The notes under the pieces: generated by a model
Databases searched by the model: none
Seen by the model: only the letters and a program-made list of their open reading frames with translations
Told to the model about the DNA's origin: nothing
In this document: positions 19,284-36,189 of the stretch, piece by piece
Layout of the letters: every line of letters begins with the position of its first letter
Numbering within the stretch: the stretch's first letter is position 1
Origin: Chloroflexota bacterium
GTDB lineage: Bacteria > Chloroflexota > Dehalococcoidia > Bin125
Reading direction: 5' to 3'
DNA: 64,000 bases
NCBI GenBank assembly: GCA_009838915.1
Contig: VXQT01000011.1
Span: 1-64,000, forward strand
Made by a program: the position numbers and the translations under genes

Positions 19284-20917
19284 GGCTCTACCCCGGAGAC
19301 GTCGAGCTGCTCGGGACGCTGGCCCGGATGCCGTTCCTCGACCGGCTGGAACTGGCCGCGCTCTCGGGCCGCTCGCGCGCCGCGGTCTACCAGCGGATCG
19401 AACGCTTCCTCGAGGCCGGTCTAGTCGAATCAGTCGGCCAGGCTTCGGAACTGGTCACGCCGACCCGCCGGTTCTGTCTCACCGGTCGTGGCGTGCGTCG
19501 GCTGGCATCGGAGGAAGAAGTGCCCGTTGCTCAGCTCTTGCGCACCCGACCGGTCTCCGAGCAGTGGCGCCGGCTGCTGCTCGAACGCCTGGACGCGGCC
19601 GCCATGATCTACCGGCTGGCCAAGCAGGCCGCACAGTTCACCTTCCCCTTGGGTGTGCGCTGGCAGAGAGCCGCGCCGATGGACGCCCTGCTGGAGCTGC
19701 CGGGAGACCTGCGCACGGCGGTGGTGCGCCAGGGCCGGACGGCCGACCGGACCGGGTTCGCCAAGCGCATCCGCCGGCTCAAACAGACCCCCGGCCACGG
19801 CGCGGTGCTCGTGATCTGCCCCGATGAAACCCGCCTGCGCCACGCGCGGCGGTTGGTCGCGGGGCCGCCCGCGATCACCTTCCTCGCGCTCGAACGCGAC
19901 GTCGCCCTGGCCGGCGCCGAGGCCGCCGTCTGGCGCGGGCCCACAGGCGCGGCGCGATTGACCCTGCGCGAGGCGCTCGCTTACGCGCTGCCGACTTCAG
20001 CGGAACGACCAGAGCGGCCCCTGGTCCGAGTCTCGCTGCCTGAACCACTCGGTCCGGAATGCGACGACGCCTCATGGATGCTGCCCGCCGTGATCACGAC
20101 GGCGGAGAAGCGCGTGCTCGATCTCGTCGGCGATTGGCCCTGGCTCAGGCCCGGTCACCTGGCGGCATTGCTCGGCGTCGGCCGGCGCCGGCTGACACAG
20201 CTGCTCGCACGGCTGGACGAACCGGGCCTGATCACGAGGATCGTGCGGGCGGGTGCACCGCGGCTCGCGCTCTCCGACCGCGGCCTCGCCTATCTCGCTC
20301 GCCGCGACCGGACCTCGGTCGGCATCGCGCGCAAGCGCTGGAGTCCGGAACCGCGCTGGCCGGACGACCCGTTCGACTGGCGCAACGTCTCAGGGATTCG
20401 CTCGCGCCAGCTCCTGCGCAATCTGGAGCACACCGAGTCGGTGCACTGGTTCAACACGCTGTTGGCCGGCCAGGCGCGCGATCAGGGCAGCCGCCTCGTC
20501 CAGCTCGACCCACCCCATCGCACCTCGCGCTACTTCCGCTCGCATGAGCGGATGCGTTCGATCCAGCCCGATGCCTACGCGCTTGTGGAGACGCCCTCGG
20601 GCGAGCAGGCGTTGTTCCTCGAATTGGAGCGGCGCGCCGTGCGTCCGGCCACGATGGCGGCCCGGCTCGCGCCCTACCTGCGCTACTACGCCACCGGACG
20701 CCCGCTTGAGGACCACGGACTCCTGCCCCGGGTGCTGGTCGTGTTCGAGGACGAACTGGCCGCCGACCATTTCCTGCGCATCGCCGCAGACGCCGTCGCT
20801 CGGGCCGAGGTGCCCTTGCCGCTGCTGGTCTCCGACCGCCTGAGGCTCGAACACCACGGTCCCGTGGGCCGCGCCTGGCGCTCGATTGAGCGTTCGGCGC
20901 CGCGCGGCCTCGACTGA
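19280..20917 (+). CDS. Replication-relaxation family protein, possible relaxase or initiator
   Basis: 545 residues. Two winged-helix-like units are visible, at about residues 5-75 (LELAALSGRSRAAVYQRI) and 270-345 (LRPGHLAALLGVGRRRLTQLL). The C-terminal domain has the replication-relaxation family pattern: IQPDAYALVET, then QALFLELERR, then MAARLAPYLRYYAT and PRVLVVFEDE. The PDA/E/K-type spacing suggests a nuclease-like fold. No classical relaxase of the MOB families is seen in the module, so this protein is the best candidate for processing DNA at transfer; that is inference from position (ATGA overlap with the coupling ATPase). Confidence 0.75.
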   Translation: MRLYPGDVELLGTLARMPFLDRLELAALSGRSRAAVYQRIERFLEAGLVESVGQASELVTPTRRFCLTGRGVRRLASEEEVPVAQLLRTRPVSEQWRRLLLERLDAAAMIYRLAKQAAQFTFPLGVRWQRAAPMDALLELPGDLRTAVVRQGRTADRTGFAKRIRRLKQTPGHGAVLVICPDETRLRHARRLVAGPPAITFLALERDVALAGAEAAVWRGPTGAARLTLREALAYALPTSAERPERPLVRVSLPEPLGPECDDASWMLPAVITTAEKRVLDLVGDWPWLRPGHLAALLGVGRRRLTQLLARLDEPGLITRIVRAGAPRLALSDRGLAYLARRDRTSVGIARKRWSPEPRWPDDPFDWRNVSGIRSRQLLRNLEHTESVHWFNTLLAGQARDQGSRLVQLDPPHRTSRYFRSHERMRSIQPDAYALVETPSGEQALFLELERRAVRPATMAARLAPYLRYYATGRPLEDHGLLPRVLVVFEDELAADHFLRIAADAVARAEVPLPLLVSDRLRLEHHGPVGRAWRSIERSAPRGLD

Positions 20918-20942
20918 GCGTCAGGTCGAGCCGGTCCGGCTG

Positions 20943-21308
20943 CTAGGCCGCCCGCTTCTTCTCCTGGGTTTCCTCGCTCGCCGCGCCGCCGCCGCACAAC
21001 CCCGCCCAGACATCCTCGCCAAACAGCCGCGCCTGGCGTTCGTCCGCCTCCCCCTCATCCGCTCCGCTCAGCAAGCAGTTCAACAGCTCCCGCTCCGTGG
21101 CGAATTCCACGATCGCCAGCATGTGCGCCGCGTCCGGCCGGGTCCCGGCCCGCCAGCGGTAGAGCGAGCGCACGCCCACGCCCAGTTCTCGCGCCAGCCG
21201 CCGCCAGGTCAGACCCGACGCCGCCCGCAGGCGCTCCAGGCGCTGCGGGAAGTCGTCGGGAAACTCAGTCCCTCGGGACCGGTAACCGGATTGCTGGATG
21301 GGGATCAT
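20943..21308 (-). CDS. Small XRE-like HTH regulator, third gene of a three-gene cassette
   Basis: 121 residues from the ATG at 21308, which overlaps the stop of the upstream gene (ATGA). The HTH is at about residues 20-75: FPQRLERLRAASGLTWRRLA, then LGVGVRSLYRWRAGTRP. Lambda-repressor-like proteins of this type bind operator DNA. The tail (SEETQEKKRAA) is charged. It is homologous in layout to its neighbour at 21305-21601: both have DxxxRLxRLxxxTGLTW-xx-A-LGV. The cassette ends close to the replication-relaxation stop on the other strand (25 bases), so transcripts converge. Confidence 0.72.
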   Translation of the reverse strand: MIPIQQSGYRSRGTEFPDDFPQRLERLRAASGLTWRRLARELGVGVRSLYRWRAGTRPDAAHMLAIVEFATERELLNCLLSGADEGEADERQARLFGEDVWAGLCGGGAASEETQEKKRAA

Positions 21309-21601
21309 CGCCGGCGCTCCTCCCGCCGGGCCGCGCAGGGATCGTGGCCCAGGAGTTCGTTCAGCCCGTCCGGCAGCTGCGCCGCCAACCGAATCAGCGA
21401 GAGCATCGAGCGCCCGTTGGGGCAGGCGCCGCGCCGCCAGCGTTGCAGCTGGCGGTCGTCCACGCCCAGCGCTTCGGCCATCTCTTCCCATGTCAGGCCA
21501 GTGCGCCGCTTGAGCCGGGCCAGCCGCTCGCCGAAATCGCCGGGCAACTGGGCCTCACCCGGCGCGAACTCCAGTCGTCTCCTCACCCTTCTGCCGCTCA
21601 T
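21305..21601 (-). CDS. Small XRE-like HTH regulator, second gene of the cassette
   Basis: 98 residues. The HTH runs at about residues 20-75 (GERLARLKRRTGLTWEEMAE, LGVDDRQLQRWRRG), with a short basic tail (CAARREERRR). It is a paralogue of the product at 20943-21308. Its ATG overlaps the stop of the upstream small gene (ATGA), and its own stop overlaps the next start, so the three are one tightly coupled transcript. Likely role is repression of element functions, from the XRE fold; target sites are not proven, although TACAAGTGTT repeats lie upstream (21862-21909). Confidence 0.74.
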   Translation of the reverse strand: MSGRRVRRRLEFAPGEAQLPGDFGERLARLKRRTGLTWEEMAEALGVDDRQLQRWRRGACPNGRSMLSLIRLAAQLPDGLNELLGHDPCAARREERRR

Positions 21602-21786
21602 CGCTCGATCGCTCCCTGGGCGCTGCCGCCTGGGTCGGCGCTCGCGCTCTCCGGCTCAGCCTGCGCTGCCGCGGCTTCGGCCGCTTGGCGGGCCAGGTGG
21701 CGCCGCGCGATCATCCGCGCCACGATCCGCAACCCGGCCCGCAGGGTTTGGTGCTCGTCCTCCGTCATCTCCCGCATACGCATCAC
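21598..21786 (-). CDS. Small protein heading the XRE cassette
   Basis: 62 residues, helical and alternating charged/alanine (TEDEHQTLRAGLRIVARMIA, RQAAEAAAAQAEPES). The start may be any of the clustered Met codons at the N-terminus. No family recognised. It overlaps the next gene by 4 bases (ATGA), which is the main evidence that it is expressed. It could be a dimerisation partner for the following regulators or a small transfer-control peptide. Confidence 0.45.
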   Translation of the reverse strand: MMRMREMTEDEHQTLRAGLRIVARMIARRHLARQAAEAAAAQAEPESASADPGGSAQGAIER

Positions 21787-21861
21787 GTCCGTCTCTCATG
21801 TCAACGGGAATCTCGATTAGATCGGAGGCCGGCAGGGTCATGACGCACATCTCTTCTGCGG

Positions 21862-21909
21862 TACAAGTGTTCTGTGTTAGGTCGAAGGTATCGCTGTTCT
21901 ACAAGTGTT
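21862..21909. promoter_or_regulatory. Direct TACAAGTGTT repeats upstream of the XRE cassette
   Basis: TACAAGTGTT occurs at 21862-21871 and again at 21900-21909, same orientation, start to start 38 bases (close to four helical turns with slack). The interval 21787-22190 (about 400 bases) between the cassette and the Crp/Fnr gene has no gene and is lower in GC, as expected for a control region. Operators for the cassette's own XRE proteins are the simplest reading. Confidence 0.45.
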
Positions 21910-22190
21910 GTCAATGTCTGTTGGAATGCATCATTGATGCTGTGGACAACCTATCCGCGCGCTGTGCGCACTGGGATGCAGGCCGCGCGCGTATCCGGTC
22001 AACGGCCAGCTCAAGCCTCGACGGATTGTGCAATCGATCGCGATGATCAAGGGCCAATACAGCTGCGTACGGAGCGAGGAGGGGCCGGCGCGGGGTGTTG
22101 TTTGCTACCAGGGAACCCGCGACTAGTTAGCTCTGGGTCTGCGGTTGGACTCCTCTGGAGCGCAGCGGGATTCGGCACCAGGCGATTGCT

Positions 22191-22952
22191 TCACTCGTCG
22201 CCGTCCCCGGCCAGCAGCGGCCGGATCTCGCGGGTGCGCATGTCGAGGAAGGCGTAGTCCTTGAGCAGGTCCACGTCCGGCACCAGCACCTCGCCTCGGA
22301 ACCGCGCCCCCGGCCGGTCGCCCCACTGGACCACCTGCTCCCTGGCCAGTTCGGCCAGTCCGACCGACACGCCGGAGCGGGACATCGTCGTCAGCCGCGC
22401 GATGTCCGTCTGGCGCACGGCGATCCGGCGATCGACGCCGAAGTCGCGGTCCTCCAGCGCCAGCCGTGACACGAGCGCCGCCGCCACCCGCGAGCCGGGC
22501 GCGCCGCTGGTCGCGAGCGAGACCCAGTAGTAGCGGGCCAGCCGGCGCATCACCAGCTCATGCATCCGCTCGCGTACGGACGGCAGTTCGTCCACTACCC
22601 GCGCCATCACCACCTTCGGAATCCGGACGACGACCGCCTCCGTGATCGCTGAGTAGCTGGCGACCCAGCGCTCCGCGTCCATCAGAAACTCGTGCACCCC
22701 GATCAGAAACGGCGCGTCAAGTTCCGAGTGCGGGGATTGCCAGGGCACGGCCGTCCCGTGCTGGACGAAGACCAGATCTGCGAACGACGCGCCGGAGCGG
22801 ATAAAGGGCGAGTCGGCGGAGGGTTCGATGTAGTCCATCTCCAGCGTCTCGGCGGCGCCTATGAGCACGCGATCCAGTTCCTCGACCGAGACCGGCGCGA
22901 AGTCGAGGCATCGGACGAGGCCCTTGGCGAATCCAGAGACGCGAACGGACAT
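22191..22952 (-). CDS. Crp/Fnr-family transcription regulator
   Basis: 253 residues. N-terminal about 1-145 matches a cyclic-nucleotide-binding-type beta roll (ADLVFVQHGTAVPW, FLIGVHEFLM, AVVVRIPKVVMARVV), followed by the long dimer helix (VRERMHELVMRRLARYYW) and a C-terminal winged HTH at about 175-225: VRQTDIARLTTMSRSGVSVG, LAREQVVQWGDR. The family senses small ligands, redox or nothing known. No Cys cluster for an iron-sulphur centre is visible. It stands alone, with a gap of about 400 bases on each side, between the conjugation module and the defence cargo, so it may regulate one of them. Confidence 0.78.
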   Translation of the reverse strand: MSVRVSGFAKGLVRCLDFAPVSVEELDRVLIGAAETLEMDYIEPSADSPFIRSGASFADLVFVQHGTAVPWQSPHSELDAPFLIGVHEFLMDAERWVASYSAITEAVVVRIPKVVMARVVDELPSVRERMHELVMRRLARYYWVSLATSGAPGSRVAAALVSRLALEDRDFGVDRRIAVRQTDIARLTTMSRSGVSVGLAELAREQVVQWGDRPGARFRGEVLVPDVDLLKDYAFLDMRTREIRPLLAGDGDE

Positions 22953-23351
22953 CGCCGGCTCCTAATCTGGCTTGCTCACGCGTACGGTATTCGATCCAAT
23001 GAGTCACAAGGTGAGTTCCCCCATGCTGTGCCATGTGTGTGCGCAGTCAAAGGAGATGGGGTTGTGCTGGAAGCCCGTACCACCGTCTGTCAGCTTCTCG
23101 AACAGCGCCTGTCAGACAGAATTCCGCAGCGCCATCCCGCCGGAGCACCTCACTGTCGGAGCGAGGAACCGGAAGTCAAGGGAAGGCTCGCCGCGCACAC
23201 TCACCCAGTCAACGAGACCATCCTCTGCAGCATCTTCGATCCGCAGACCCACGCCCCACCTTCGTGATACCGTTTTACCTGAACTACTGTCCGACAAAAT
23301 GGCTGTGGCCTTTGCCAATCGCAACACTCCATCTGACTCCGCGAGATCGAC
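22953..23351. other. Intergenic region
   Basis: About 400 bases between divergently arranged Crp/Fnr and PIN genes. GC is lower than in the neighbours. Overlapping open frames here have no recognisable content. It should hold the promoters of both genes, but I cannot place boxes reliably. Confidence 0.4.
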
Positions 23352-24674
23352 ATGACCTCCAGCATCTACTTGTTCCCCGACTCGAATGTCTTCTTGCAAT
23401 GCAAGGCGCTGCAAGAGATCAATTGGCGTAGCTGCGAGGCGCTAGCGGAGTTTGAAGAGATTCATCTGCTGGTCTCGCTCCCCGTCATGAACGAAATCGA
23501 CAAACTGAAGAGCCGCGGCAACGATCGCCTTGGCCGCCGCGCCCGCAAAGCCAACGGCATCATTCGAGACCTCGTGCTGAGCGACAGTCCACAGCGCATT
23601 GTCAGGCCAACTGACCCGACCGTGACTCTCGCCGAGGTGACCTCCATTCGGCCCACTCCCGGCTTTCTCGACTATGAGATTGCGGACAATCGAATACTTG
23701 GCTGCGTGGATGCCTACCGCTCCGCGCACGACGATCGTGACGTCCGCTTCCTCACCCATGACACCGGACCAATGGCGACCGCAAGGAATCAAGGTGTCCC
23801 CCTCGTTCCCGTGCCCGACGGTTGGCTGTCGGATCCAGAGCCCTCGGTAGCCGAGCGACGAGCTGCGCAGCTGGAAGCGGAAGTCAAGCGCCTGGAACAG
23901 AAGCAACCTCGATTCGACATCCAGTTTCTTGGGACCCATGACAACAAGCTCAGGGGACAGTGTCCTACTGCACGTTCGCTCACTGATAGCGAGATCTCCC
24001 ACCTGCTTGGCCAACTGCGTAGTCGCTTTCCTGGGTCTAAGGATTCAGAGTGGCTAAAGGATTGCGAGGAAATGCTGGCCAATCTTCACACCTCGCTTCA
24101 GCATCTATCCGAGCGGCCATTGGTGGAGATCGCCGTCGAAAATCATGGCACGGTACCAGCGAAAGACGCGCTGATCGAGATAGTCGGGCTCGGGCCGATC
24201 TTGTTGTGCGTTCCGCTCGATGATGACGATTCCTATCGGGCGTATCGTCGGGAGCGGATTCGACTACCGTCGCCGCCGTCACTTTTCGACAGACGGATGT
24301 TTGGATCATCCATTCACTTGCCCATGGACTACTCCAAGCTGCCGCCTCGCGATCCGAACACCTTCTACTACAAGCCGAATCGCCCAATGGAACCTGTTGA
24401 GACCATCACCTTGGAGTGCCAACAGTGGCGGCACGAGACGGAGACTGAGTACTTTGTCGCCGAGATCTACCTAGATTCGGAGCGTCCTACGATTGAAGGC
24501 ACGATCGAATGTCGCATTCACGCTGAGAATCTTCCCAACCCCGCCATATCGCATGTCACAGTGCAGATCGCCGGTCAGCCTGTCGACGTCGTGGAGCATG
24601 CAGCGAGGATGGTCGCCCAAGTAACGCCTCGGCCGCACGGTCGGTCGAACGATTTCTCGATTTCGCCGTTCTAA
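23352..24674 (+). CDS. PIN-domain nuclease with a large uncharacterised C-terminal part
   Basis: 440 residues. The first 150 form a PIN ribonuclease domain with the acidic set in order: D10 (FPDSNVFLQ), E48 (VMNEIDKLK), D112 (ADNRILGC) and D137 (FLTHDTGP). The domain is longer than in toxin PINs and resembles the PhoH-linked type. A coiled segment follows (RRAAQLEAEVKRLEQKQ, about 180-197). The remaining 240 residues are beta-rich and unknown to me; a repeated VEIAVENHGTVPAKDALIEI-like strand pattern suggests an Ig-like fold. It sits alone in the defence cargo. RNA cleavage in response to a trigger is an inference. Confidence 0.7.
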   Translation: MTSSIYLFPDSNVFLQCKALQEINWRSCEALAEFEEIHLLVSLPVMNEIDKLKSRGNDRLGRRARKANGIIRDLVLSDSPQRIVRPTDPTVTLAEVTSIRPTPGFLDYEIADNRILGCVDAYRSAHDDRDVRFLTHDTGPMATARNQGVPLVPVPDGWLSDPEPSVAERRAAQLEAEVKRLEQKQPRFDIQFLGTHDNKLRGQCPTARSLTDSEISHLLGQLRSRFPGSKDSEWLKDCEEMLANLHTSLQHLSERPLVEIAVENHGTVPAKDALIEIVGLGPILLCVPLDDDDSYRAYRRERIRLPSPPSLFDRRMFGSSIHLPMDYSKLPPRDPNTFYYKPNRPMEPVETITLECQQWRHETETEYFVAEIYLDSERPTIEGTIECRIHAENLPNPAISHVTVQIAGQPVDVVEHAARMVAQVTPRPHGRSNDFSISPF

Positions 24675-24855
24675 GGTCGGTGGTTCCCTGCTGATGGATC
24701 TTGGCCGGCCTCCGCGGAACTCTCGTGAAAGACGCACGGACGCACCGCCGTCCGCTTGAACTAGACCTTGTCGATGGAGAGCCCCACTATTGCCCACTCA
24801 TGTGCAGAACAAGTCCCGGTCCCGTGACTTCGCAGTGGATCCGCCTGCGCTCGGC

Positions 24856-25503
24856 TCAGGCCGCAGCCGCGTCCAGTCCGCGAACGACGTCGATCAACTC
24901 CCTGGCCGAATCCTCGTTGAACTCAGGGGCGTGGTAACCATGGATCATCGCATTTCTCAGATCCCAGAGGCGCGTCAATTTGTCCCGTTCTTCCGCCGAG
25001 ATCACGCCTAGATATGACGCCTGCTCCGACATCTGTCGGAAGCTGAAGAGTCGGCTATCCGCTTTTTCGGCGCCCCCGAGCAGCAGTCTGATCTTCGCCT
25101 CGTATGCCATACAAGCCAGTATGAACGCCGACTCAGCGTGCCCCTCGTCAAGTAGCTGCTCAGCCTCATCGAGCCGCAGATGGACGTGCTCGCGGTCGAT
25201 AGGATCCGCCCCGCGTGGCGGCTCTGGTGTTTCCGTTTCGGCTGCCAGCACCAACTCGAAACTCCAGCCGGGTTGTGCCTCTATGGCCCGAGCCAGATGG
25301 TCTAACACACCTGCATTGACCAGCGCCGAACGGCTCTTGATCTCGATCACCCGCACCTGATCGCCCTTGCGCGCCAGCAGATCGGCCCGAAAGCCGGGCA
25401 TGAAGTCGAGCTCCTGATCGATTGCGACCTCATAGCCCTGATCCCGGTAGGCGTCCGCGGTCTCTTGTTTGAGTTGGTATTCGGCTGCGGTGGGATTCGC
25501 CAT
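24856..25503 (-). CDS. Fusion of a restriction-type nuclease fold and a HEPN-like domain
   Basis: 215 residues. N-terminal about 8-90 has a PD-(D/E)XK layout: FRADLLAR with D41, then VRVIEIKSR with E54 and K56. C-terminal about 100-205 is all-helical and ends with DLRNAMIHGY: R183-N-A-M-I-H188 matches the RX4H catalytic motif of HEPN RNases. Thus one chain appears to carry a DNA-nuclease and an RNA-nuclease signature. The ATG (25501-25503) shares one base with the stop of the upstream RusA-like gene (TGATG), so they form a two-gene unit. Defence or toxin function is inferred from motif and setting. The HEPN part could instead be a non-catalytic helper. Confidence 0.68.
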   Translation of the reverse strand: MANPTAAEYQLKQETADAYRDQGYEVAIDQELDFMPGFRADLLARKGDQVRVIEIKSRSALVNAGVLDHLARAIEAQPGWSFELVLAAETETPEPPRGADPIDREHVHLRLDEAEQLLDEGHAESAFILACMAYEAKIRLLLGGAEKADSRLFSFRQMSEQASYLGVISAEERDKLTRLWDLRNAMIHGYHAPEFNEDSARELIDVVRGLDAAAA

Positions 25504-25907
25504 CAGAACGTCACCTCCCGGTTGCTGGCCTGAGCGACGGATACGTGCACCACCCGCCGTGAACGGCGCAGGTGTCCCAGCAAGTAGGGCGACGGATTGC
25601 GAACCACAACATCCTCCCTCAGGTCCCTCTTGCGGCAGGCCAAGTCGATGACCTGATCGTCATCGGCGTAGACGAGGCCCTTGAGCGCGTCGAGGATCGG
25701 TTTGGGAATGTTGTCGACATCGGGCGAGCCTGCATCGAAAAAGTAGGTGATCGTCAGGGCGACCAAACCATCGGTTGGCGCGGCCCCTCGCCAACGCTGG
25801 CGAGCCGCATTCCGAACCTCCTCTTGCCATGCTACCCGCAACTCAGTGCGTCGGGCTTGCTGCGATACGGGGCTTCGCGGCAGCGCAAGTTCGAACGGAA
25901 GCGGCAT
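25503..25907 (-). CDS. RusA-like Holliday-junction resolvase
   Basis: 134 residues from the ATG at 25907, preceded by GGGGAG; longer upstream frames lack sense. RusA-type enzymes are dimeric resolvases common in phages. The core is PDVDNIPKPILDALKG with D63, D65 and K69, followed by DDDQVIDLACRKRD with D84. These match the spacing of E. coli RusA D70, D72, K76 and D91 exactly, so the enzyme is probably active. It overlaps the nuclease-HEPN gene by one base. A resolvase beside a toxic nuclease is unusual. It may come from a prophage or serve element recombination. Confidence 0.78.
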   Translation of the reverse strand: MPLPFELALPRSPVSQQARRTELRVAWQEEVRNAARQRWRGAAPTDGLVALTITYFFDAGSPDVDNIPKPILDALKGLVYADDDQVIDLACRKRDLREDVVVRNPSPYLLGHLRRSRRVVHVSVAQASNREVTF

Positions 25908-26365
25908 GCTCCCCGCCTGCGCGCCGCCGCCTTCATTGATCTCACTCACACTCGAACGGTACCAGCACGTCCTGTCTTCGAGAGGCACTGTGCGCCGGGA
26001 CACGAGGGAAGGTCCTGGCACGCAGGAACACCGACTTATGGCCGTTGCCGAGACGAGCAATCGCTTCGATCCGTCAGAGCGCAATCGAACGAACACCGGA
26101 GTTCGAAGCCGTCCCCGTAACCCCGCGGCACCCCTCTCCGATGGGCTGACGTTCATTCGCCAGGAGCGTCGCAGGCAACTAGGCCCTCTGCGGATCTGCT
26201 GCTGTCCCGCCGGTGCGAGAGCCGAACTCTACTTCGTCGCTCATGGAAGGCCATCCCTGGTCGCGAAGGTCTGGGTCCTGGCATGTAGCCGGTTGCTCAC
26301 TCTCTCGACGACTGTGGAGGCGGCTAACGTGTCGGAAGGCGACGAATCCTACGACGCCGTGTCAG
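25908..26365. other. Intergenic region between divergent genes
   Basis: About 460 bases between the RusA-like start and the type ISP gene. Open frames in it have no recognisable content. It presumably carries divergent promoters. Confidence 0.35.
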
Positions 26366-26737
26366 ATGCGGAACCCCCACGTGACCGAACTCCGTCAGGC
26401 CGTCAAGCAGTACCTCGACGCCATCTCGTCTGTCAGCCGCGTCGGGACGCCTGAGCTTTCCCACTACACCGCGTTGGACAATCTCTTCGACGCCATCGGC
26501 AACGAACTGAAGCCCAAGGTCCGCGCCGTTGTCCACTACAGCGAAACCGCCTCCGGCCAGCCAGACCTCGGCTTCTTCTCCGGCGAGCACACCGACCCGG
26601 ATCGCGGCGTGGTCGAGGTTAAGGGCGCCGACGCCGATCTCGATGTGCTGATCGCCTCCGGACAAGTAGATGCCTACTGGCAGACGCGCAAGCTCGTCCT
26701 CGTGACCAACCTGCGCGAGTTTGCGCTGGTCGGATAG
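26366..26737 (+). pseudogene. N-terminal nuclease fragment of a broken type ISP restriction-modification gene
   Basis: About 123 codons from ATG 26366 (or GTG 26381) to TAG 26735-26737. It contains the nuclease part: GQPDLGFFSG then GVVEVKGADADL, the PD and E-x-K core of a PD-(D/E)XK endonuclease, then LVLVTNLREFALVG. Coding continues after the TAG in the same frame for 46 codons up to the ATG at 26876 with family-like sequence (LERYSLANSAPAFDDLLEHT), so a single in-frame amber codon separates the nuclease from the methylase part. Confidence 0.75.
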
Positions 26738-26875
26738 GACAACGACGGCGCGAAAGCGACCCTCGAGCGTTACTCGCTGGCCAACTCCGCCCCAGCTTTC
26801 GATGACCTGCTGGAGCACACGACTCGCGCCGCCAACCGGCATGGCGTCTCGCTGGCGGAGTACCTGCTGCGCACA

Positions 26876-29377
26876 ATGTCGCACCGTTCGACGATTTCCG
26901 AGCCGCGCGACCTCGCCCGGCTACTCGCTTCCTACGCCCGCGACGCGCTGCAGCGGGTCGAAGAGGCGGCAGAGGAAGAGGACTCGCTGGCGACGATCCG
27001 CGAGGCCATCGAGCAGGCGCTGGGCATGTCGTTCGAGAGCGAGGACGGTGGCCGGTTCTTCCGCTCGACCCTAGTGCAGACGCTGTTCTACGGCGTCTTC
27101 GCCGCCTGGGTGCTCCGGGCTCGGGCGGGCAAGCCGGGACGCTTTCGCTGGAGAGAGGCGGTTGACGAGATCCAAGCTCCAGTCTTGGGTTTGCTGTTCC
27201 ACGAACTCACCGAGCGAGGACGCCTCAGGCGACTGGGACTTCTCGAAGTGCTCGACTGGACCGAGGCCGCGCTGGACCGCGTCGACCGTGAGGCGCTTCT
27301 AAAGCGTTTCTCGGAGGGCGAGGCAGTGCAGTACGTCTATGAGCCGTTCCTCGAAGCCTTCGACCCCGACCTGCGCAAGCAGCTTGGCGTCTGGTACACG
27401 CCGCGCGAGATCGTGCGCTACATGGTCGCCCGCGTCGACCGGGCGCTGCGCGACGACCTCGGCATCGACAAGGGACTGGCCGACGAGCGGGTCTACGTGC
27501 TCGATCCCTGCTGCGGGACGGGCGCCTTCCTGGTCGAGACGCTGCGCCGGATCGCCGAGACCGAGCAGGCCTCGGGCGGCGCGACCTGGGCAGAGTCGGT
27601 CCGCCAGGCCGCCGCGACCCGCGTCTTCGGCTTCGAGATCATGCCCGCCCCGCTGGTCGTCTCGCACCTCGAAATCGGCCTCGCGCTGGAGCGCCTGGGC
27701 GCGGGACTCTCGCCCGACCAGCGCGCAGGCGTCTTCCTGACCAACGCCCTGACCGGCTGGGAGCCGCACACGACCAAGCCGCTGCCCTTTCCCGAACTGG
27801 AACAGGAACGCCGTAGCGCCACACGAGTCAAGCAGCAGCGCCCGATCCTCGTGGTGCTTGGCAACCCGCCCTACAACGGCTTCCCCGGCGTACCCGACGC
27901 GGAAGAGGAGCGGAAGCTGTCGGACGCCTACCGCCAGGTCTCCGGACCCGACGTGCCCAAACCGCAGGGGCAGGGACTCAACGACCTCTACGTGCGCTTC
28001 TTTCGCATGGCCGAGCGGCGCATTGCCGAGAAGACCGGCAAGGGCGTCGTCTGCTTCATCTCCAACTACTCCTGGCTCGACGGCCTCTCCTTCCCCGGCA
28101 TGAGGCAGCGCTACATCGACGCCTTCGACATCATCCGCATCGACAACCTCAACGGAGACAAGTATCGCACCGGCAAGCTCACGCCCGACGGCGACCCGGA
28201 TCCCAGCGTGTTTTCGACGAAGGACGATCCGGTCGGAATCCAGGTCGGCACGGCAATCGCAACGCTGGTGCGACACGAGACGCACAGTCCTGCCGAGCAG
28301 GTCGATTGGCGAGAGCTGTGGGGAACAAGCAAGCTCCGGGAACTGGAGAATTCAGCAGAGTTGGAGCCGTCTTCACTAGGTCGGTCGGTGAAGCCGATCC
28401 CACTGCTTGGATTTTCATTCAGGCCTGATGAGGTCGAAGGTGGCTGGACTGAATGGCCTGCGCTGATCGACTTGTTTCCGAAGCGACTACATGGCGTACT
28501 GACAAACAGAGATGCGTTTCTGGTTGACATTGATCCGCACCAGTTGCGCACTCGGATTGCTGAGTATTTCGACGCAAGCATTAGCCACGAGGACATTGGG
28601 CGTCGCAATCCGATGGCCATGAAATCGACCCGGAGAACCAAAGCGCGACCAGTGCGAGAGGCTCTTTTGGTCAGGGGCGAACCGGATGACGATGCCTTTG
28701 TCCGATTTTCGTACAGACCCTTCGATGCCCGCTGGTTGTACTGGGAACAAGAGACCAAGCTGCTCGACGAAAAGCGCCCGGAGTATCGACAGCATGTGTT
28801 CGGTGGCAACCTCTGGTTGTCGGCTGCGCAGCAGCTCCGCAAAGGCATAACGGAACCACAAGCCTTCTTCACGACGCTGCCGGGGTCGCACCACCTCATC
28901 GAACGCGGGGCTAACATGTTCCCCCTCTACCTCCGAGACGACCAGTTCGGCGAGGAGGCAAATGGCGTCAAACGGTCCGCCAACCTGAGCGAGCTGGCGC
29001 GGGCCTACGTCGAGTCGATGGACGCTGCACCCGAGGACCTGTTCCACCACGTTCTCGCCATGCTGCACGACTCCGCCTACCGAGAGGCCAACGCCGGCGG
29101 TCTGCGCATGGGCTGGCCCCGCATCCCCCTGCCCGACGACCCCGCCGACCTCGCCCAGTCCGCCGCCTCGCCCGCCTGCTCGACACCGAGTCCGACGTCG
29201 CCGACCTCCTCGCCGACTACACCCACATCGGCGTCCCCACTACAATCGACGGCCAACCGATGCAACCCGCCGACTTCCACCTCACCGCCGGCTGGGGTCA
29301 CTTCGGCGCCAATCAAGCCGTCATGCCCGGGCAGGGCAAGATCAATCGTCGTGGAGACATGGTGGACGTGTATCTGA
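26876..29377 (+). CDS. Type ISP/IIG restriction-modification enzyme, methyltransferase fragment
   Basis: 833 codons in this open part; the frame is already open from 26738. It carries an adenine-N6 DNA methyltransferase domain with motif I DPCCGTGAF near residue 209 and motif IV LGNPPYNG near 330, preceded by a helical block (GVWYTPREIVRYM-like). The C-terminal target-recognition part reaches about residue 755. From about 29160 the reading turns into a Pro/Ser/Thr-rich string that is not family-like; the true C-terminus continues in another frame (29260-29568). Without the nuclease fragment it could act only as a methylase, and the damaged C-terminus may prevent even that. No helicase domain is present, unlike LlaGI-type ISP enzymes. 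Confidence 0.8.
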   Translation: MSHRSTISEPRDLARLLASYARDALQRVEEAAEEEDSLATIREAIEQALGMSFESEDGGRFFRSTLVQTLFYGVFAAWVLRARAGKPGRFRWREAVDEIQAPVLGLLFHELTERGRLRRLGLLEVLDWTEAALDRVDREALLKRFSEGEAVQYVYEPFLEAFDPDLRKQLGVWYTPREIVRYMVARVDRALRDDLGIDKGLADERVYVLDPCCGTGAFLVETLRRIAETEQASGGATWAESVRQAAATRVFGFEIMPAPLVVSHLEIGLALERLGAGLSPDQRAGVFLTNALTGWEPHTTKPLPFPELEQERRSATRVKQQRPILVVLGNPPYNGFPGVPDAEEERKLSDAYRQVSGPDVPKPQGQGLNDLYVRFFRMAERRIAEKTGKGVVCFISNYSWLDGLSFPGMRQRYIDAFDIIRIDNLNGDKYRTGKLTPDGDPDPSVFSTKDDPVGIQVGTAIATLVRHETHSPAEQVDWRELWGTSKLRELENSAELEPSSLGRSVKPIPLLGFSFRPDEVEGGWTEWPALIDLFPKRLHGVLTNRDAFLVDIDPHQLRTRIAEYFDASISHEDIGRRNPMAMKSTRRTKARPVREALLVRGEPDDDAFVRFSYRPFDARWLYWEQETKLLDEKRPEYRQHVFGGNLWLSAAQQLRKGITEPQAFFTTLPGSHHLIERGANMFPLYLRDDQFGEEANGVKRSANLSELARAYVESMDAAPEDLFHHVLAMLHDSAYREANAGGLRMGWPRIPLPDDPADLAQSAASPACSTPSPTSPTSSPTTPTSASPLQSTANRCNPPTSTSPPAGVTSAPIKPSCPGRARSIVVETWWTCI

Positions 29378-29568
29378 ATGATCGGGCGTGCTGGCGAGAC
29401 GTGCCGACTGAGGTGTGGGAGTATCGGCTGGGAGGCTACCAGGTACTCAAGAAGTGGCTCAGCTACCGAGAGTCGAAGGTGCTGGGTCGGGGGCTGGAAG
29501 TGGGAGAGGTCGGCTGGTTCTCGGCGGTGGCTCGGAGGATTGCGGGTATTCTCAAGTTCTCTCGCTGA
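29260..29568 (+). pseudogene. C-terminal specificity fragment of the type ISP gene (frameshifted)
   Basis: In-frame product MQPADFHLTAGWGHFG... ends with WRDVPTEVWEYRLGGYQVLK and KWLSYRE, the conserved end of type ISP enzymes. Its frame differs from the upstream part by two bases (29260 minus 26876 leaves remainder 2). The joint lies near 29160-29175, where the intended sequence seems to be LARLLDTESDVADLLADYTH. A lost or gained base there breaks the gene; a sequencing or assembly error is the alternative. Confidence 0.72.
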
Positions 29569-29596
29569 GTGTGGTCCTGAAGAGAGGCCTTGGCAG

Positions 29597-30934
29597 ATGC
29601 GCGTGGACGAGTTTGAGGACCTCGGCTTCTTCTGGCTTCCCGACGACCCGAAGGCCAAGGAGCGAGTCCCTGGAGTTCTTCGAGCCTCGGCACAGGGAGC
29701 CATCACACTGGAGACATTCGGCCTCGCCGAAGGAGAACCGCACTCGCTCGCTTCCGATCTCACGCTTCGCGATGGAGAGGCAACCAGAAGGATTCTGGGC
29801 GTCACGAGAGAACGCGGGTTTGTCACACTGGATGGGTGTTTGCGAACAGACAGCAGCGTCGAGGCACGCTCGCATGGCTTAATCTTCAATGGCGCCACGT
29901 TTCTCGCGACGTGGCTGTTCGTCGGCATAGCCTACGATTCACAGGAGTGCGTGCGCTTCTCCAGAGTGAAGTTCGACGTTGAGGGACTAGATGAATGGCT
30001 CGCGCTGTCAGGAATCCAGGTCGATGCCGATGTAATGCAAGGCCGAGCGACGATCACCTTTCAGCGTCCTGACTCTCTTGGTCTTCCAGGGCTGCTCGAC
30101 GGCGAGCACGGAAAGATCAGGTTCGGCTATTCGATTCCGTCAGCCTGGGAGGAGACGAAGAGCGCGGGAGTTTCCCAGCGCGCATACGTGGAGCTATCCA
30201 CAGATGGTTGGTGGACAGCAGATGAGGCGACGCGTCGGGTCATGTGGTTCCGGGACCTCTTGCGACTGGCTGCTGATCAGAGTGTGTCAGTGATCGGGCT
30301 CACCGGGTACTCCCGCGAGGTGACTGAGCCTGCTCAAGGCGGTGGTGAACGCGAGAGCGAGATAGAAATCATCTACGAGGAGCGCAATCAGGGCGTAGCT
30401 GACCGCAACCTGCTCGGGCCGCTGATGTTGTTTCAGCGCCGTGATCTGAAAGACGATCTGCACGTATGTATCGGACGATGGTTCGCCATGTACTCCGAGC
30501 ATCATCAGCCCTTACGTCTCTATTTCTCAGCGGTAGATTCGAGCAGGGATCCGACCTTGGATGAGAGGTTCCGACAGTTGACTGAGGCGCTTGAGACTCT
30601 CGACAAGGCCCTCCATGGCAATGCAAGGAAGGACTTCAGTCAGAGAATACAGAGATTGGCCGAACCGTTTGCTGATCTCTTGGAACTCGAGGACTCCTGC
30701 GAGCAGTTTGGTCTAACGGTTGCCCATACGAGGAATGTCCAAGTTCATCATCTTCCGATAGGAGGAAACGATGTTGCAGTTGGTCGGGATTTGCTCAGGC
30801 TCACATATCGCTGCGAGTTGCTATTGATCTGTCACTTTGTGGCCGTGATAACGGGCAGCTACGCTTTGGCCATCGAAATGATCGAGGACAAGGAAGCCAC
30901 TACGAAACGACAGCAGGTGATCGGCGACAGATAG
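29597..30934 (+). CDS. apeA: ApeA-like HEPN anti-phage defence protein
   Basis: 445 residues from the ATG at 29597, after GAGAGG. The N-terminus (FEDLGFFWLPDDPKAKERVP, then GAITLETFG) matches the ApeA N-terminal domain. The C-terminal 150 residues are helical and hold R379-N-V-Q-V-H384, the RX4H motif of HEPN ribonucleases, at the site used by the Apea-type HEPN domain. ApeA proteins are known single-gene phage-defence systems in which the HEPN part is required, and are thought to cut RNA, causing abortive infection. GC is lower than in the chromosome part. It follows the broken restriction gene by 28 bases, likely in one transcript. Catalytic residues are intact, so it may be functional. Confidence 0.75.
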   Translation: MRVDEFEDLGFFWLPDDPKAKERVPGVLRASAQGAITLETFGLAEGEPHSLASDLTLRDGEATRRILGVTRERGFVTLDGCLRTDSSVEARSHGLIFNGATFLATWLFVGIAYDSQECVRFSRVKFDVEGLDEWLALSGIQVDADVMQGRATITFQRPDSLGLPGLLDGEHGKIRFGYSIPSAWEETKSAGVSQRAYVELSTDGWWTADEATRRVMWFRDLLRLAADQSVSVIGLTGYSREVTEPAQGGGERESEIEIIYEERNQGVADRNLLGPLMLFQRRDLKDDLHVCIGRWFAMYSEHHQPLRLYFSAVDSSRDPTLDERFRQLTEALETLDKALHGNARKDFSQRIQRLAEPFADLLELEDSCEQFGLTVAHTRNVQVHHLPIGGNDVAVGRDLLRLTYRCELLLICHFVAVITGSYALAIEMIEDKEATTKRQQVIGDR

Positions 30935-31400
30935 CCAGCTCGCGACCTCGTCACAAGAACAGGCTACGGGCCGGTTCCATCCATCTTGCAGGGATGGGCG
31001 ACTCTCCATGCGTGTTGTAGGCAGATCCAGATGTCGGAGGTGATGCCAAAGACTTGCTCGGTTCGCGTGGCCGGGGGCGGTGACGCTTGGCCCCTCACAG
31101 CACAAGGCCAGACCTGTCGCCACAACTCGGAGATAGGACAATCTAAGGGTCCAGATCGTTGTTCAACGCGTATCTGGAGACGGGAGTTCCTGCAGCGCTG
31201 CTGCGCATTCCACTCCCTGGCCGAAGCGACCGAGATCGTCCGAGTACCCGGCGGTCATCTGGGCGCGCTGCTCAGTGCACCGGCAACACCTGGCTCCGAG
31301 TTGTACCGCTGCCGAGTGGACTTGATCGTCCACGGAGAATCGGTGGCTGACGGGCGAAGAACCCATGGGGCAGAACGACAGAGGCAGTGTTCCCTGTGCT
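30935..31400. other. Intergenic region
   Basis: About 465 bases after the ApeA-like gene and before the end of the opposite-strand HNH gene (convergent). No gene, repeat or clear terminator was found; open frames are short and unlike proteins. Confidence 0.35.
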
Positions 31401-31901
31401 TCAGCCACAGGACCTGACGACGGCTACCAGTAGCAGGACCAACACCATCGCAGGGAGCATCCACAACGTCGCGGGCGAGGCTCCACGCTGGGTCCAGTGT
31501 CTTTGTCTCGCTGTCTCAAAGCGCTTCCGGCATATGCCGCGGACAGTCGGCGAGGCGCGGGTGCGTCGAGTCTCGGCGGCGAACTCCTCTTGTTCGATCG
31601 GTGGATCGGGGATCGATTCGTCCGCCGGCAACAACCGCCAGTAGCGGTCGCGGAACTCCTCGTCGGTCTGGATTCCCTTCCGCAGGTTGCAGGCCGTGCA
31701 CAGCAGCTGTAGGTTCGCCCGCTCGTTGCCGCCGTTGCGGCTCACGGGCCACTTGTGGTCGATTTCGAGTTGGCGGTTGCTCATGCGGCGGCCGCAATAG
31801 CGGCAGCGGCCTCGCTGCTCGATGAACAGCGCATTCCGCACTCGCGCAGGAAAGACGACTCGCCCGCGGGCCGGTAGTCCTCCGCTCTCATCGACTTCCA
31901 T
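31401..31901 (-). CDS. HNH endonuclease with a C-terminal membrane segment
   Basis: 166 residues. The HNH core is at about 30-80: CRYCGRRM, then EIDHKWPVSRNGGNE, then NLQLLCTACNLRKG. Two CxxC pairs bind zinc and the DH pair is the metal-binding active site. The last 25 residues hold a hydrophobic helix (LWMLPAMVLVLLLVAVV) followed by RSCG, so the nuclease may be tethered to the membrane with the catalytic part in the cytoplasm. HNH enzymes with this compact form are common in phages and restriction loci; the membrane tail is not. Start taken at the first ATG in frame. Confidence 0.72.
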   Translation of the reverse strand: MEVDESGGLPARGRVVFPARVRNALFIEQRGRCRYCGRRMSNRQLEIDHKWPVSRNGGNERANLQLLCTACNLRKGIQTDEEFRDRYWRLLPADESIPDPPIEQEEFAAETRRTRASPTVRGICRKRFETARQRHWTQRGASPATLWMLPAMVLVLLLVAVVRSCG

Positions 31902-32756
31902 CCGGCAGAGGCTAGCGCGCTGGTCGTCGGCGAGCAGCTATTCGGTGGATGCGTGATCGCCAGGAACGATTGACAGCCTTGCCGAAGTGTTGACCACTGC
32001 GCAAGGATTGAGACCGAATCGCCAGATGCTTGACCAGGCACATGCCCGCCAAGCGGCGATCGCTGCATCTGAAGGCAGCAGCGATGATCGCCGTTCCTGC
32101 GATCACAGTGGTCCGGCCCCTGAAGAAGTGGCGCAAAGACCCTGGAGATCTTGCCCAAGAGTGGTTCATAGATCTTGGCGATTTGCACCAAAGCCTCGTT
32201 AATCTCGTGAATCAGTGGCCATAGATTTCAGCTGCATTCATTGCCCGTTTGGGTTGCGTCACCCCTGTCCATCAACCGTCCAGCCGGGAACTCTTGTCTC
32301 GCGCCAAGGTCTCCGCGTCGTTCGGATAGTCGTGTTCGGTGGGTATCCCACGTCCCGTTCCTGTCAGGCCCTCGGGGCGCTACCGTGCGATGGTTGCCGC
32401 GAACCGGCGGCATCCACTGACCGCCTGCGTCTCTTCAGCAGAAGGAACCGACGCCGACCGATATGACTAAGAACGCGCTCTGTTGCGGGCAAGCGATTCA
32501 CCCTCGGAGCTAGTGGTTCCTAGACGCCGCGAGCACCTGGGTCATCCTCCTCGGTCCGAGCCGGAGAGTGCGATGTGTGCCAACTCTGGTGCGACCCCGT
32601 CGCCGCGGCGATAGGCAAGGACTCAGCCGGATTCACTTGCCTACGCCTTCTCCGTCATCACGAGTTGCTCATGCGCGGCCCCACCATAAACAGTACGCCG
32701 ATGCTGAACCGAGGGACCCAAAGTGATCCGGATACGATGTGAGCGAGGAGTCCGCG
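31902..32756. other. Long gap with at most one tiny gene
   Basis: About 855 bases. The only sense-like frame is on the plus strand at about 32042-32224: 60 residues beginning MPAKRRSLHLKAAAM, with one hydrophobic stretch (AAAMIAVPAITVV) and a helical end rich in Leu/Asp/Trp (LAQEWFIDLGDLHQSLVN). It lacks a convincing ribosome site. It could be a small membrane peptide or chance. The rest holds nothing I can support. Confidence 0.3.
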
Positions 32757-32993
32757 ATGCGCACAGCACAACTCGACCGGATCACGTTCGACACCGAGGT
32801 CATGGGCGGCAAGGCCTGTATCCGCGGCCTGCGCGTCACCGTCGGGACGGTCGTGGCACTGTTGGCAGCCGGCCAGTCGTCTGCCAGCATCCTGCGTGCG
32901 TATCCCTACCTCGAATCTGAGGACATTGACCAGGCGCTCGCCTATGCCGCCTGGCGGCTAGAGGAGCGCGAGGTTCCGTTGGCGGTCCAATGA
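32757..32993 (+). CDS. DUF433 antitoxin-like protein
   Basis: 78 residues from the ATG at 32757, chosen because GCGAGGAG lies 7 bases upstream; a GTG at 32739 is poorer. The product has the DUF433 signature (FDTEVMGGKACIRGLRVTVG), then SSASILRAYPYLESEDIDQA and a C-terminal helical segment (LAYAAWRL). These proteins have a small HTH-like fold and act as antitoxins of DUF5615 PIN-like partners. Its stop overlaps the start of the next gene by 4 bases (ATGA), as is usual for such pairs. Confidence 0.82.
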   Translation: MRTAQLDRITFDTEVMGGKACIRGLRVTVGTVVALLAAGQSSASILRAYPYLESEDIDQALAYAAWRLEEREVPLAVQ

Positions 32994-33358
32994 GACCGAG
33001 GGTGCTGATCGACATGAACCTCTCGCCCGAGTGGGTCGATTCTCTGTCGAAGGAAGGCTGGGAAGCGGTGCATTGGTCCGAGGTCGGAGACCCACGGGCT
33101 ACTGACCGAGAGATCATGGATTGGGCGCTCGCCAACGCATACATCGTGTTCACGCACGACCTAGACTTTGGCACGATGCTCGCACTCACGCATGACCGCG
33201 GTCCTAGCGTTCTGCAAGCACGAGCCGAGAACGTTCTGCCGCTCCAACTCGGCCCAACAGTCATCGCAGCACTCGAACAGCATCGATCAGACCTGTTGGC
33301 GGGCGCGTTGGTCGTTGTCGACGAGCGTCGCAGCCGGGTGCGCGTCCTGCCAATCTGA
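32990..33358 (+). CDS. DUF5615 PIN-like toxin
   Basis: 122 residues. It contains the PIN-like acidic residues in VLIDMNLSPEW (D8) and FTHDLDFG (D59/D61), with WSEVGDPRATDREIMDWA between them. The DUF5615 family has a PIN fold and presumably cleaves RNA; it is usually encoded downstream of DUF433 as here. The ATG overlaps the antitoxin stop. The pair may stabilise the element or act in defence. Target unknown. Confidence 0.82.
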   Translation: MRPRVLIDMNLSPEWVDSLSKEGWEAVHWSEVGDPRATDREIMDWALANAYIVFTHDLDFGTMLALTHDRGPSVLQARAENVLPLQLGPTVIAALEQHRSDLLAGALVVVDERRSRVRVLPI

Positions 33359-33525
33359 GCTTGGTGCGAAGCGATCCGGTCGAAGCTCCCTTCGTGGCAC
33401 CCACAGCCTCTCTCTTCAGCCCCTTCTTGGACGCATTCTTGCACAACTGGGCAACATCCGTTAGGAGGCTGCCCGAGCGACATTTCCGTGCACTTGGCTG
33501 CATTCTTGACTTTTCTGGCCGACGC

Positions 33526-34362
33526 ATGTCCAATCGAAGTTACTCTGCTCAAACTCGGATGGCGGAAGAGCGGACGGGAGTCGTGGTGCCAACGGTCAAC
33601 TCGCACCAAGAAGGTAGAGTGTCAATCTGGGGACTTGGTGCTCGTACGTGCGGGCCTCATCTTCAGGCGTTGTTCTGGGAGAACCCGCACGATGACACAC
33701 TCCTTGCGTACGAGTTTCGGATAGTGCTGCCGAGCGGCGTGGTCTCGCCATGGCACTCGATTGCAGCGGCCAAGCTGCCATGCCGAGACTGGAAAACCCA
33801 CTCTGTTCTCATCTACCACGATCTCGATGACCCTTGGGATCTGATAGTGGAGCTCCGCGGCGTAACCGGCGTTCATCACGGAGATCCTCCAGTCTCCATC
33901 CACCTGGCGGCACTCTACGAGGTTCAGTACACGGAGCCGATGTGGAGGAGTCAAGATCCTCAAGGCCTCGGCCCACGCCTTGCCATCGGACTTGGAGATG
34001 CGGAAGACCAAACGACCGGGCCGATGCGAGATGTGTCCGAAGGAGTACTGAGTCTCACAATGAGGGAGGATCAGTCGCTGGAGGAAGCTCAGTCCAAGGC
34101 TGCTAGCCGAGGGGCGCGGTATCGGCGACAGGACAGCGATTGGATCGAGCCATCTGCGGCCGCGAGGAGAACGTCATTCAACCACCTGCGTCCAACGCAG
34201 ATTCCGTCCACGAGTTATGCGCCGGAGGACGTGCTTGGTGACGTGCTCGAACGCCGCGACTGGGACTTGCACGTGTACATAGATGACACAGGCACGGTGT
34301 GGTTCACTGTCCGGGAGCATCTTGCCTGGGACAGAGGATATGAGCTGAGTCTCTTGAGATAA
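33526..34362 (+). CDS. Protein of unknown function
   Basis: About 278 residues if the ATG at 33526 is used; 33559 is another possibility, and the frame is open from TTG 33361. No family recognised. It is soluble-looking, with a beta-rich first half (SIWGLGARTCGPHLQ, LLAYEFRIVLPSGVVSPWHS) and a charged second half. A short repeat-free Ser/Arg stretch (RTSFNHLRPTQI) precedes a C-terminus with WDLHVYIDDTGTVWF. It lies alone between the toxin-antitoxin pair and the integrase, with lower GC than the chromosome genes. A cargo gene of the element; function cannot be inferred. Confidence 0.5.
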   Translation: MSNRSYSAQTRMAEERTGVVVPTVNSHQEGRVSIWGLGARTCGPHLQALFWENPHDDTLLAYEFRIVLPSGVVSPWHSIAAAKLPCRDWKTHSVLIYHDLDDPWDLIVELRGVTGVHHGDPPVSIHLAALYEVQYTEPMWRSQDPQGLGPRLAIGLGDAEDQTTGPMRDVSEGVLSLTMREDQSLEEAQSKAASRGARYRRQDSDWIEPSAAARRTSFNHLRPTQIPSTSYAPEDVLGDVLERRDWDLHVYIDDTGTVWFTVREHLAWDRGYELSLLR

Positions 34363-34578
34363 CGCGCAATACCGAGAGCTCCTGTCCCTCACCAGGCCGC
34401 CCCTTGAGGTCCGATGCAGAAGGGCAGCCCGTAGCGCCCTAATCCTCCGCACCCCTGTCGGGATGTGGGCGGATGGCACGAGATGCATCGCCGGATTTTA
34501 CTTGGCCGCAGATCGGATATCCTTGTTTCGAACACGTAGCACGGTGTATCACTGCGCGCGACTCGAGAGGCGTTTGCC

Positions 34579-36189
34579 ATGCATAACCAATCCGTTCGTA
34601 TCCCAGCCGCCCTCTATGCCCGCGTCTCCTCCGACCGACAAGACGTCGACCTCTCCGTCGCCGCCCAGTTGCGCGCGTTGCGTGACTTCGCCGAGCGCAA
34701 CGGCTTTGTCATCGCCCGCGAGTACATCGACGAGGCCGAATCGGGACGCGTCGCTGATCGGCCGCAGTTCCGCAAGATGCTGGATGAAGCGGCGCAGCCG
34801 AACGCGCCGTTTCAGGAGATCCTGGTCTGGAAGTTCTCGCGGTTCACCCGCAAGCGCGAACACGCTGTGGCCTTCAAGTCGATGCTCAGGCGGCGCGGCA
34901 TCCGCGTCACCTCGATCACCGAGCACGCCGACGACACCCCGACCGGCAAGCTGATGGAGGCGATCATCGAGTCGGTCGACGAGTTCTACTCGGAGAACCT
35001 GGCTCAGGAGGTCACGCGCGGGATGCGCGAGGCCGCCGCGCGCGGGTTCTTCCTCGGCTCGCGCGCGCCCTACGGATACACGCGGGTCAAGGTGCAGGAC
35101 GGCGGCAAGGAGCGTCCCACGCTTGAGATCGACCCGGCGACCGTGCCGATCGTCAAGGAGATGTTCGAGCGCTCGGCCCGGGGTCAGGGGCTCAAGGAGA
35201 TCTGCCAGGACCTGCACGAGCGCGGAATCACGAAGGGCGGCAAGCGCTGGCAGAAGAACATGCTGCACTACGTGCTCACCAACGAGGCCTACACCGGCAC
35301 CGCGGTCTGGGGCAAGACGGCTAGGGATGGACAGACTCCCGACCCGGTGCGAGTCGCCGACGCCTGGCCCGCCATCGTCTCGCGGGAGTTGTACGACGCG
35401 GTGCAGGCGGGGCTCCGAGCCCGGGCGCCGAAGATCCAGGCGCCGGCCCGCGTGGGCAGCAAGTTCCTGCTATCGGGCCTGCTGCGCTGCGGTGTCTGCG
35501 ATAAGCCGTACACCGGCCAAAGCGCCAAGAGCGGTCAGTTCGCCTACTACGTCTGCAACAAACTGCTGCGCGAGGGCGCAGGCGCCTGTGACGGACGCTA
35601 CCTCAACGCCGGAAGGATGGAGGACCAGGTCGTCGCCAAGATCATGCAGCGCATCCTCAACGAGGAGACGATTACCGAACTGGTCCAGCTGGTGGCCGAG
35701 GAGGTCGACGCGCTGGCCCAGGAGCGGGCCTCGGACCTGGCGATCATCGAGTCGGACTTGGACGATGTCCGCCGCCGCCTGGAGAAGCTCTACGACGCCA
35801 TTGAGAACAGCGACCTGACCTATGAGGCGCTCTCGCCGCGCATCCTCAAGCTGCGCCAGCAGGAGGATCAGCTGGCAGCGGCCCGCGACGACGCCGTCCG
35901 CCAGCTGGAGCAGCGCCGCGCCGACCTGCCCTCAACGCCCGAGATCAAGCGGTACGTCGCTGAGTTCCGCGAGTTCCTCCAGACCGGCACCATCCCGGAG
36001 CGCAAGGCGCTGATCCGCAACTTCGTCCAGGGGGTCAAGATCGACGGGGATGAGGTATCGATCCAGTACACTATCCCCATGCCCTCCGATGGCGCAACCC
36101 AGGACCGGGAATCAGTTCTCGATTTCGTCCAGTCCGGCCCACCATCACGTACTGAACTGCGAACTCATTTGGCAAGGGCCACTTGTTAG
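34579..36189 (+). CDS. Large serine recombinase, probable integrase of the element
   Basis: 536 residues. Resolvase domain at about 5-150 with the catalytic serine in YARVSSDRQDVD; recombinase domain at about 170-280 (RAPYGYTRVKVQDGGKERPT, TLEIDPATVPIVKEMF); zinc ribbon LRCGVCDKP ... YVCNK ... GACDGRY at about 305-340; then a coiled-coil region (LDDVRRRLEKLYDAIENSD). This order is that of phage and conjugative-element large serine integrases. It lies at the far right of the accessory region and is followed by core genes, as expected for an integrase near one attachment end. Serine-integrase attachment sites share only a tiny core, so attL and attR could not be recognised. Confidence 0.87.
   Translation: MHNQSVRIPAALYARVSSDRQDVDLSVAAQLRALRDFAERNGFVIAREYIDEAESGRVADRPQFRKMLDEAAQPNAPFQEILVWKFSRFTRKREHAVAFKSMLRRRGIRVTSITEHADDTPTGKLMEAIIESVDEFYSENLAQEVTRGMREAAARGFFLGSRAPYGYTRVKVQDGGKERPTLEIDPATVPIVKEMFERSARGQGLKEICQDLHERGITKGGKRWQKNMLHYVLTNEAYTGTAVWGKTARDGQTPDPVRVADAWPAIVSRELYDAVQAGLRARAPKIQAPARVGSKFLLSGLLRCGVCDKPYTGQSAKSGQFAYYVCNKLLREGAGACDGRYLNAGRMEDQVVAKIMQRILNEETITELVQLVAEEVDALAQERASDLAIIESDLDDVRRRLEKLYDAIENSDLTYEALSPRILKLRQQEDQLAAARDDAVRQLEQRRADLPSTPEIKRYVAEFREFLQTGTIPERKALIRNFVQGVKIDGDEVSIQYTIPMPSDGATQDRESVLDFVQSGPPSRTELRTHLARATC

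Follow-up and report, generated by a model that had tools for sequence, protein, structure and literature searches.

The window, the whole 64,000-nucleotide stretch analysed here, comprises bases 1-64000 of the 160,585-bp contig C38 of a draft genome (2.87 Mb, 38 contigs, 95.16% complete). At 26381-29568 its forward strand carries one former restriction-modification gene that is interrupted twice (Table 1). The reading frame is stopped by a TAG codon, continues unshifted beyond it as far as 29377 and changes near 29157-29166, from where the C-terminal end runs on to 29568. A preliminary description of this DNA had likewise read a single gene broken twice, which agrees with our analysis, but had placed its start at 26366. 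A GTG at 26381, which aligns with the GTG or ATG starts of the relatives, is more likely to be the start codon.

Table 1. Coordinates of the interrupted gene and of two neighbouring genes in the window
Feature	Position	Strand	Evidence
Putative N-terminal nuclease piece, 118 codons, GTG start	26381..26734	+	PADLOC REase_MTase_IIG; PD...VExK motif
In-frame TAG	26735..26737	+	Gln/Glu in relatives
Linker, adenine methylase, first part of specificity domain	26738..29165	+	Pfam N6_Mtase, Type_ISP_C 1-230/342; PADLOC REase_MTase_IIG
Variable middle of specificity domain	28347..28920	+	DNA match to syntenic G003 copy absent here, present on both sides
13-nt deletion site, frame change	29157..29166	+	13 nt carried by 8/8 relatives; frame scan
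Putative C-terminal end of specificity domain, cut off, other frame	29166..29568	+	Type_ISP_C 270-318/342, E 9.6e-10; tblastn to relatives
ApeA-type gene, open, R-x4-H motif; adjacent to the enzyme gene but separate from it	29597..30934	+	Pfam ApeA_NTD1 2.2e-33; PADLOC PDC-S58 1.4e-33
Large serine recombinase	34579..36189	+	Pfam Resolvase, Recombinase, Zn_ribbon_recom

The two breaks

To describe the breaks, we compared the window with eight of the ten uninterrupted copies found in the family (L042, L043, L045-L049 and L052; L050 and L057 were left out). The TAG lies in frame with coding sequence on both sides, as the preliminary description had stated, and it parts the nuclease piece from the methylase. 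Six of the eight relatives have glutamine at this position and two have glutamate. The first possible in-frame restart after the TAG is an ATG at 26876, 138 nt past the stop and without a clear ribosome site. At the second break, the Pfam profile Type_ISP_C is split over two frames, its first part being matched by 26738-29377 and its later part by 29158-29568, and a codon-usage scan placed the switch at 29165/29166. The frame change that removes the specificity end is thus borne out. What shifts the frame is the clean loss of 13 nt rather than a slip of one base, since these 13 nt are common to all eight intact relatives compared. In L043 and L048, two copies of CCGCC, read by eye, lie 13 nt apart at the deletion site. 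Short direct repeats at such spacing are typical of deletions by slippage. The sequence flanking each break is family-like, as had been described: in the intact relatives the flanks of both breaks share a single frame, and the motifs and dN/dS values given below are those of the family.

Enzyme class, relatives and genomic setting

The nuclease piece, scanned as 26366-26734, matched residues 2-108 of the PADLOC profile REase_MTase_IIG (E 2.3e-6), and the middle piece matched the same profile with an E value of 1.7e-79. The nuclease piece gave no Pfam match, and no PDB sequence match up to E 1. The PD...VExK pattern is present in the window and in seven of eight relatives and is absent from L049; its P, D, E and K are invariant in all seven rows of the N-terminal alignment (A2). 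The assignment of a putative N-terminal nuclease rests on this motif and the PADLOC profile. The adenine methylase motifs (DPxxGxG and NPPY) are intact as DPCCGTGAF and NPPY in 9/9 rows. Type_ISP_C was matched by two pieces of the window (E 3.8e-33 for the one before the deletion) and by the intact ortholog of the genome G003 (E 4.2e-48). It is on this Pfam match that the final ~130 residues are assigned to the specificity region.

A Type ISP enzyme is described as a single chain that combines a nuclease, a helicase-like ATPase, a coupler, a methylase and a recognition domain (PMC4666363). A helicase-like ATPase of superfamily 2, which would lie between the nuclease and the methylase, was not found: the intact 1036-aa ortholog gave only Type_ISP_C, N6_Mtase and MmeI_Mtase in Pfam at E <= 0.001. 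In NCBIfam, nothing rose above the curated cut-off for the four proteins scanned. The family profile matched DrdV, a Type IIG enzyme, at E 5.4e-54, and the Type ISP enzymes LlaBIII and LlaGI at E 7.6e-45 and 1.6e-41. Mean pLDDT was 43.7 for an AlphaFold model of the 1036-aa ortholog, built from 9 rows, and 50.6 for one of its N-terminal 164 residues, built from 7 rows. DrdV was the top fold match for both of these low-confidence models, which is supportive only, and the shorter model had no fold match reaching E 0.001. Nuclease, methylase and specificity region stand in one chain in the ten uninterrupted relatives, and in three pieces in the window. The best explanation of these sequence features is a single-chain enzyme of the Type IIC/IIG kind with an N-terminal nuclease, an adenine methylase and an ISP-type specificity domain. 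Enzymes of this kind are characterised by cutting at a fixed distance from the site they recognise. The earlier label "Type ISP" therefore fits the specificity domain but not the enzyme class, as the helicase is absent and the best matches are to the Type IIG, DrdV-like enzymes. Such a label can conceal a helicase-free Type IIC/IIG enzyme.

Matches of some kind to the methylase region were present in 13 of 15 genomes of the genus, this one included, and in 16 of 20 of the family, several of them weak and to other methylases. Intact copies, for which the preliminary description had looked to close strains, do exist. Among close copies, the 20 family genomes hold ten uninterrupted ones (G001:C22, G003:C39, G004:C126, G009:C7, G009:C8, G010:C6, G012:C23, G014:C8, G015:C5 and G016:C9). 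Contig ends truncate three others (G001:C48, G004:C44 and G011:C88), and an insertion interrupts one (G005:C36). Five more are stubs of the 3' end: those at G014:C9, G003:C14 and G001:C31, together with second pieces at G003:C39 and G009:C7. In relatives from outside the family, an in-frame stop occurs in L006 and a frame change in L009, both at places other than those in the window. Relatives in named records (9 loci) come from metagenome-assembled genomes titled Chloroflexi/Chloroflexota, Dehalococcoidia, Binatia/Binatota, Deltaproteobacteria and Vicinamibacteria. Within the draft genome itself the broken gene was the single match, with no second copy. A search of viral contigs for near-identical copies gave 24 stretches that fitted a pattern, none of which encodes a relative.

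The copy in G003 (L043) is syntenic and open over 1036 codons. The gene order of G003 matches that of the window across a block at 12313-22995 (86.9% DNA identity), an AHJR gene (73.6%), the restriction gene, a stub with ApeA (68.1%) and the serine recombinase (74.0%). The restriction gene itself aligns at 26391-28347 with 86.8% and at its end, 28920-29552, with 83.7% DNA identity; the stretch between, for which no DNA match to the G003 copy was reported, is the variable specificity part. In the sister species G005, the copy is interrupted by ~2.9 kb of inserted DNA (L044 5704-8607, in the reverse complement of G005:C36:90000-106000), which is bounded by perfect 26-bp terminal inverted repeats and has an ORF that we take from its look to be transposase-like. 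This interrupted sister copy, together with the five stray 3' ends present in related genomes, indicates that decay of this gene recurs.

Conjugation-like genes lie at 10760-20917, where a TraG-type P-loop ATPase and a TrwB-type coupling protein score above the Pfam cut-offs and TrbL_4 and Replic_Relax below them; the same order is found in G003. The family of the serine recombinase is present in 13/15 genus genomes, one of which has as many as 17 matches; some of the matches are 91-97% identical. The position of the locus between the conjugation-like genes and the recombinase would fit a mobile island; no ends of an element were found. Systems of Type IIC have been described as overabundant in mobile elements, and complete systems as rare in conjugative elements (PMC4176335). 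The recombinase adjoins a conserved luciferase-like gene (36330-37211), and two of its relatives carry one in-frame stop each (G000:C25:41262-42836, TAG; G009:C11:1151-2740, TGA). Elsewhere in the window, an McrBC component and an AAA ATPase form an McrBC-type pair on the reverse strand (2183-5793), and DUF433 and DUF5615/PIN-like genes form a small adjacent pair (32739-33358), which we assume to resemble a toxin-antitoxin pair.

The ApeA-type gene begins 28 nt past the broken gene, and its match to HEPN_Apea is weak. ApeA matches of some kind occur in five of the 20 genomes, this one included; by place, only that of G003 adjoins the restriction gene. In G003 (coordinates of L043, the reverse complement of the fetched stretch), a stray 3' end at 7691-7936 is followed by ApeA at 8030-9364. 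In G009 (L042), a stray 3' end at 8470-8796 is followed by a 458-aa gene without a Pfam match at 8855-10231. Three copies (L046, L052 and L003 6609-7694) have a pentapeptide-repeat gene directly after the intact restriction gene, with an overlap of a few bases. L043, L046 and L052 all have this companion (that of L043 was scanned as L003:6609-7694), and the variable specificity part of L043 is shared with L046 at 71.6% and with L052 at 51.9%; that specificity type and companion travel together was not supported in the few copies compared. Since the stub precedes ApeA in G003 and an unrelated 458-aa gene in G009, it is conceivable, though doubtful, that the conserved 3' end of the restriction gene is a port for the exchange of companion defence genes. 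A new 3' end and a new companion would settle upstream of the old ones and leave a specificity-domain stub before the former companion, and the window would then hold a dying module outlived by its ApeA gene.

Probable inactivation and rival explanations

We consider, from one genome of the species, that the locus most probably holds a recently inactivated, permanent pseudogene of a single-chain Type IIC/IIG restriction-modification enzyme (probability roughly 0.84). If both breaks are real in the cell, the stop after residue 118 would yield the nuclease piece alone. The 13-nt deletion, which probably arose by slippage between the two CCGCC copies, would shift the end of the specificity region, ~130 residues long, out of frame. 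A restart at the ATG could yield a methylase with a truncated specificity domain, most likely unable to bind or mark its site, so that cutting and marking would both be lost for good. Cutting by DrdV is described as needing a target-bound recognition domain together with nuclease domains of other subunits, which act in trans (PMC10201449), and because of this requirement neither cutting nor marking would be expected from the remaining pieces. The loss may have shielded the host from self-cutting. The gene is of a known kind, and its fate looks like ordinary decay of a defence gene; the loss of such restriction systems has been described as frequent (PMC4176335).

The degree of constraint was examined using pairwise values, which are not branch tests, for dN, dS and dN/dS. 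Between the window and L043, dN/dS was 0.163 in the nuclease, 0.185 in the methylase, 0.403 in the variable specificity part and 0.184 at the C end. Against the other seven copies, methylase dN/dS ranged from 0.187 to 0.294 for the window and from 0.137 to 0.325 for L043. Among columns that are uniform across the eight other rows, the window departs at 0/50, 7/296 (methylase), 2/49 and 2/63. The count for the methylase places the window slightly above its nearer relatives, as differences of the same kind number 0-5 in six relatives; they number 32 in L048 and 30 in L049. The methylase dN of the window exceeds that of L043 in all seven outgroup comparisons (dS in five of seven), suggesting that some relaxation may predate a "very recent" break.

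The preliminary description had asked whether the two breaks reflect assembly errors or phase-variable sequence. An error of sequencing, assembly or strain mixing behind one or both breaks, with the gene intact in the cell, would suit a draft genome in which the rest of the gene looks preserved. Such an error is nevertheless unlikely, because the second break consists of 13 nt lost between short repeats and because, of 41 same-strand frame junctions on the contig, the other 40 have an upstream stop nearby and only 29165/29166 does not. The scan behind this count called 139,258 of 160,585 bases coding, allowed a gap of up to 60 nt at a junction with more than 150 nt on both sides, misses breaks that chance on a stop, and lists 22 in-frame stops inside called segments, this TAG included. 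A gene switched off by phase variation is the least probable alternative. Phase variation is described for Type IIG enzymes in other bacteria, and a weak array of 2.7 copies of a 9-nt unit (29132-29155) lies just ahead of the second break. The unit is, however, a multiple of three, the 13-nt deletion is not contained in the array, and a nonsense codon does not switch; a switchable tract is found at neither place. The repeats in 22000-36400, with three inverted pairs of 81-84% complementarity, do not flank the breaks with arms good enough for an invertible segment.

The preserved motifs of both pieces and their family-like dN/dS would also be expected of a natural split enzyme, in which the nuclease piece and a restarted methylase cooperate in trans, as the nuclease domains of DrdV do on a target-bound subunit (PMC10201449). 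This arrangement is very improbable: the methylase piece loses the end of its specificity region through the deletion, its first restart codon lies 138 nt past the stop and lacks a clear ribosome site, and in all ten uninterrupted relatives the chain runs unsplit through this place. Recoding of TAG was rejected, as 26 of the contig's 68 training ORFs terminate with TAG, and so was a programmed frameshift, seen in none of eight aligned relatives. Read as a recent pseudogene, the locus cleanly illustrates how two separate lesions can kill a restriction gene while the gene next to it survives. Whether nuclease or specificity was lost first would be testable if other strains hold just one of the breaks.

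Comparison with known systems

Two Thermus aquaticus plasmid records (putative TaqII/TaqIII) match at ~30% over 95% of the query. TaqII and TaqIII are described as Type IIC enzymes with a single chain of ~1100 residues, which have the recognition domain in common with Type ISP enzymes and differ from them in cutting (PMC5587805). They are distant from the gene in the window, which, in contrast to them, is broken. LlaBIII and LlaGI match over the methylase and specificity region, but their matches start at residues 841 and 677, compared to 311 here, a difference of ~370-530 extra residues where the helicase is located. The closest known system is DrdV (PDB 7lo5 and 7lvv), the best PDB sequence match, in which the match starts at a similar place (278, compared to 311 here). 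Identity to DrdV is low, the last ~130 residues align poorly, and the window copy is broken; like the family described here, DrdV carries nuclease, methylase and specificity regions in one chain of ~1000 residues.
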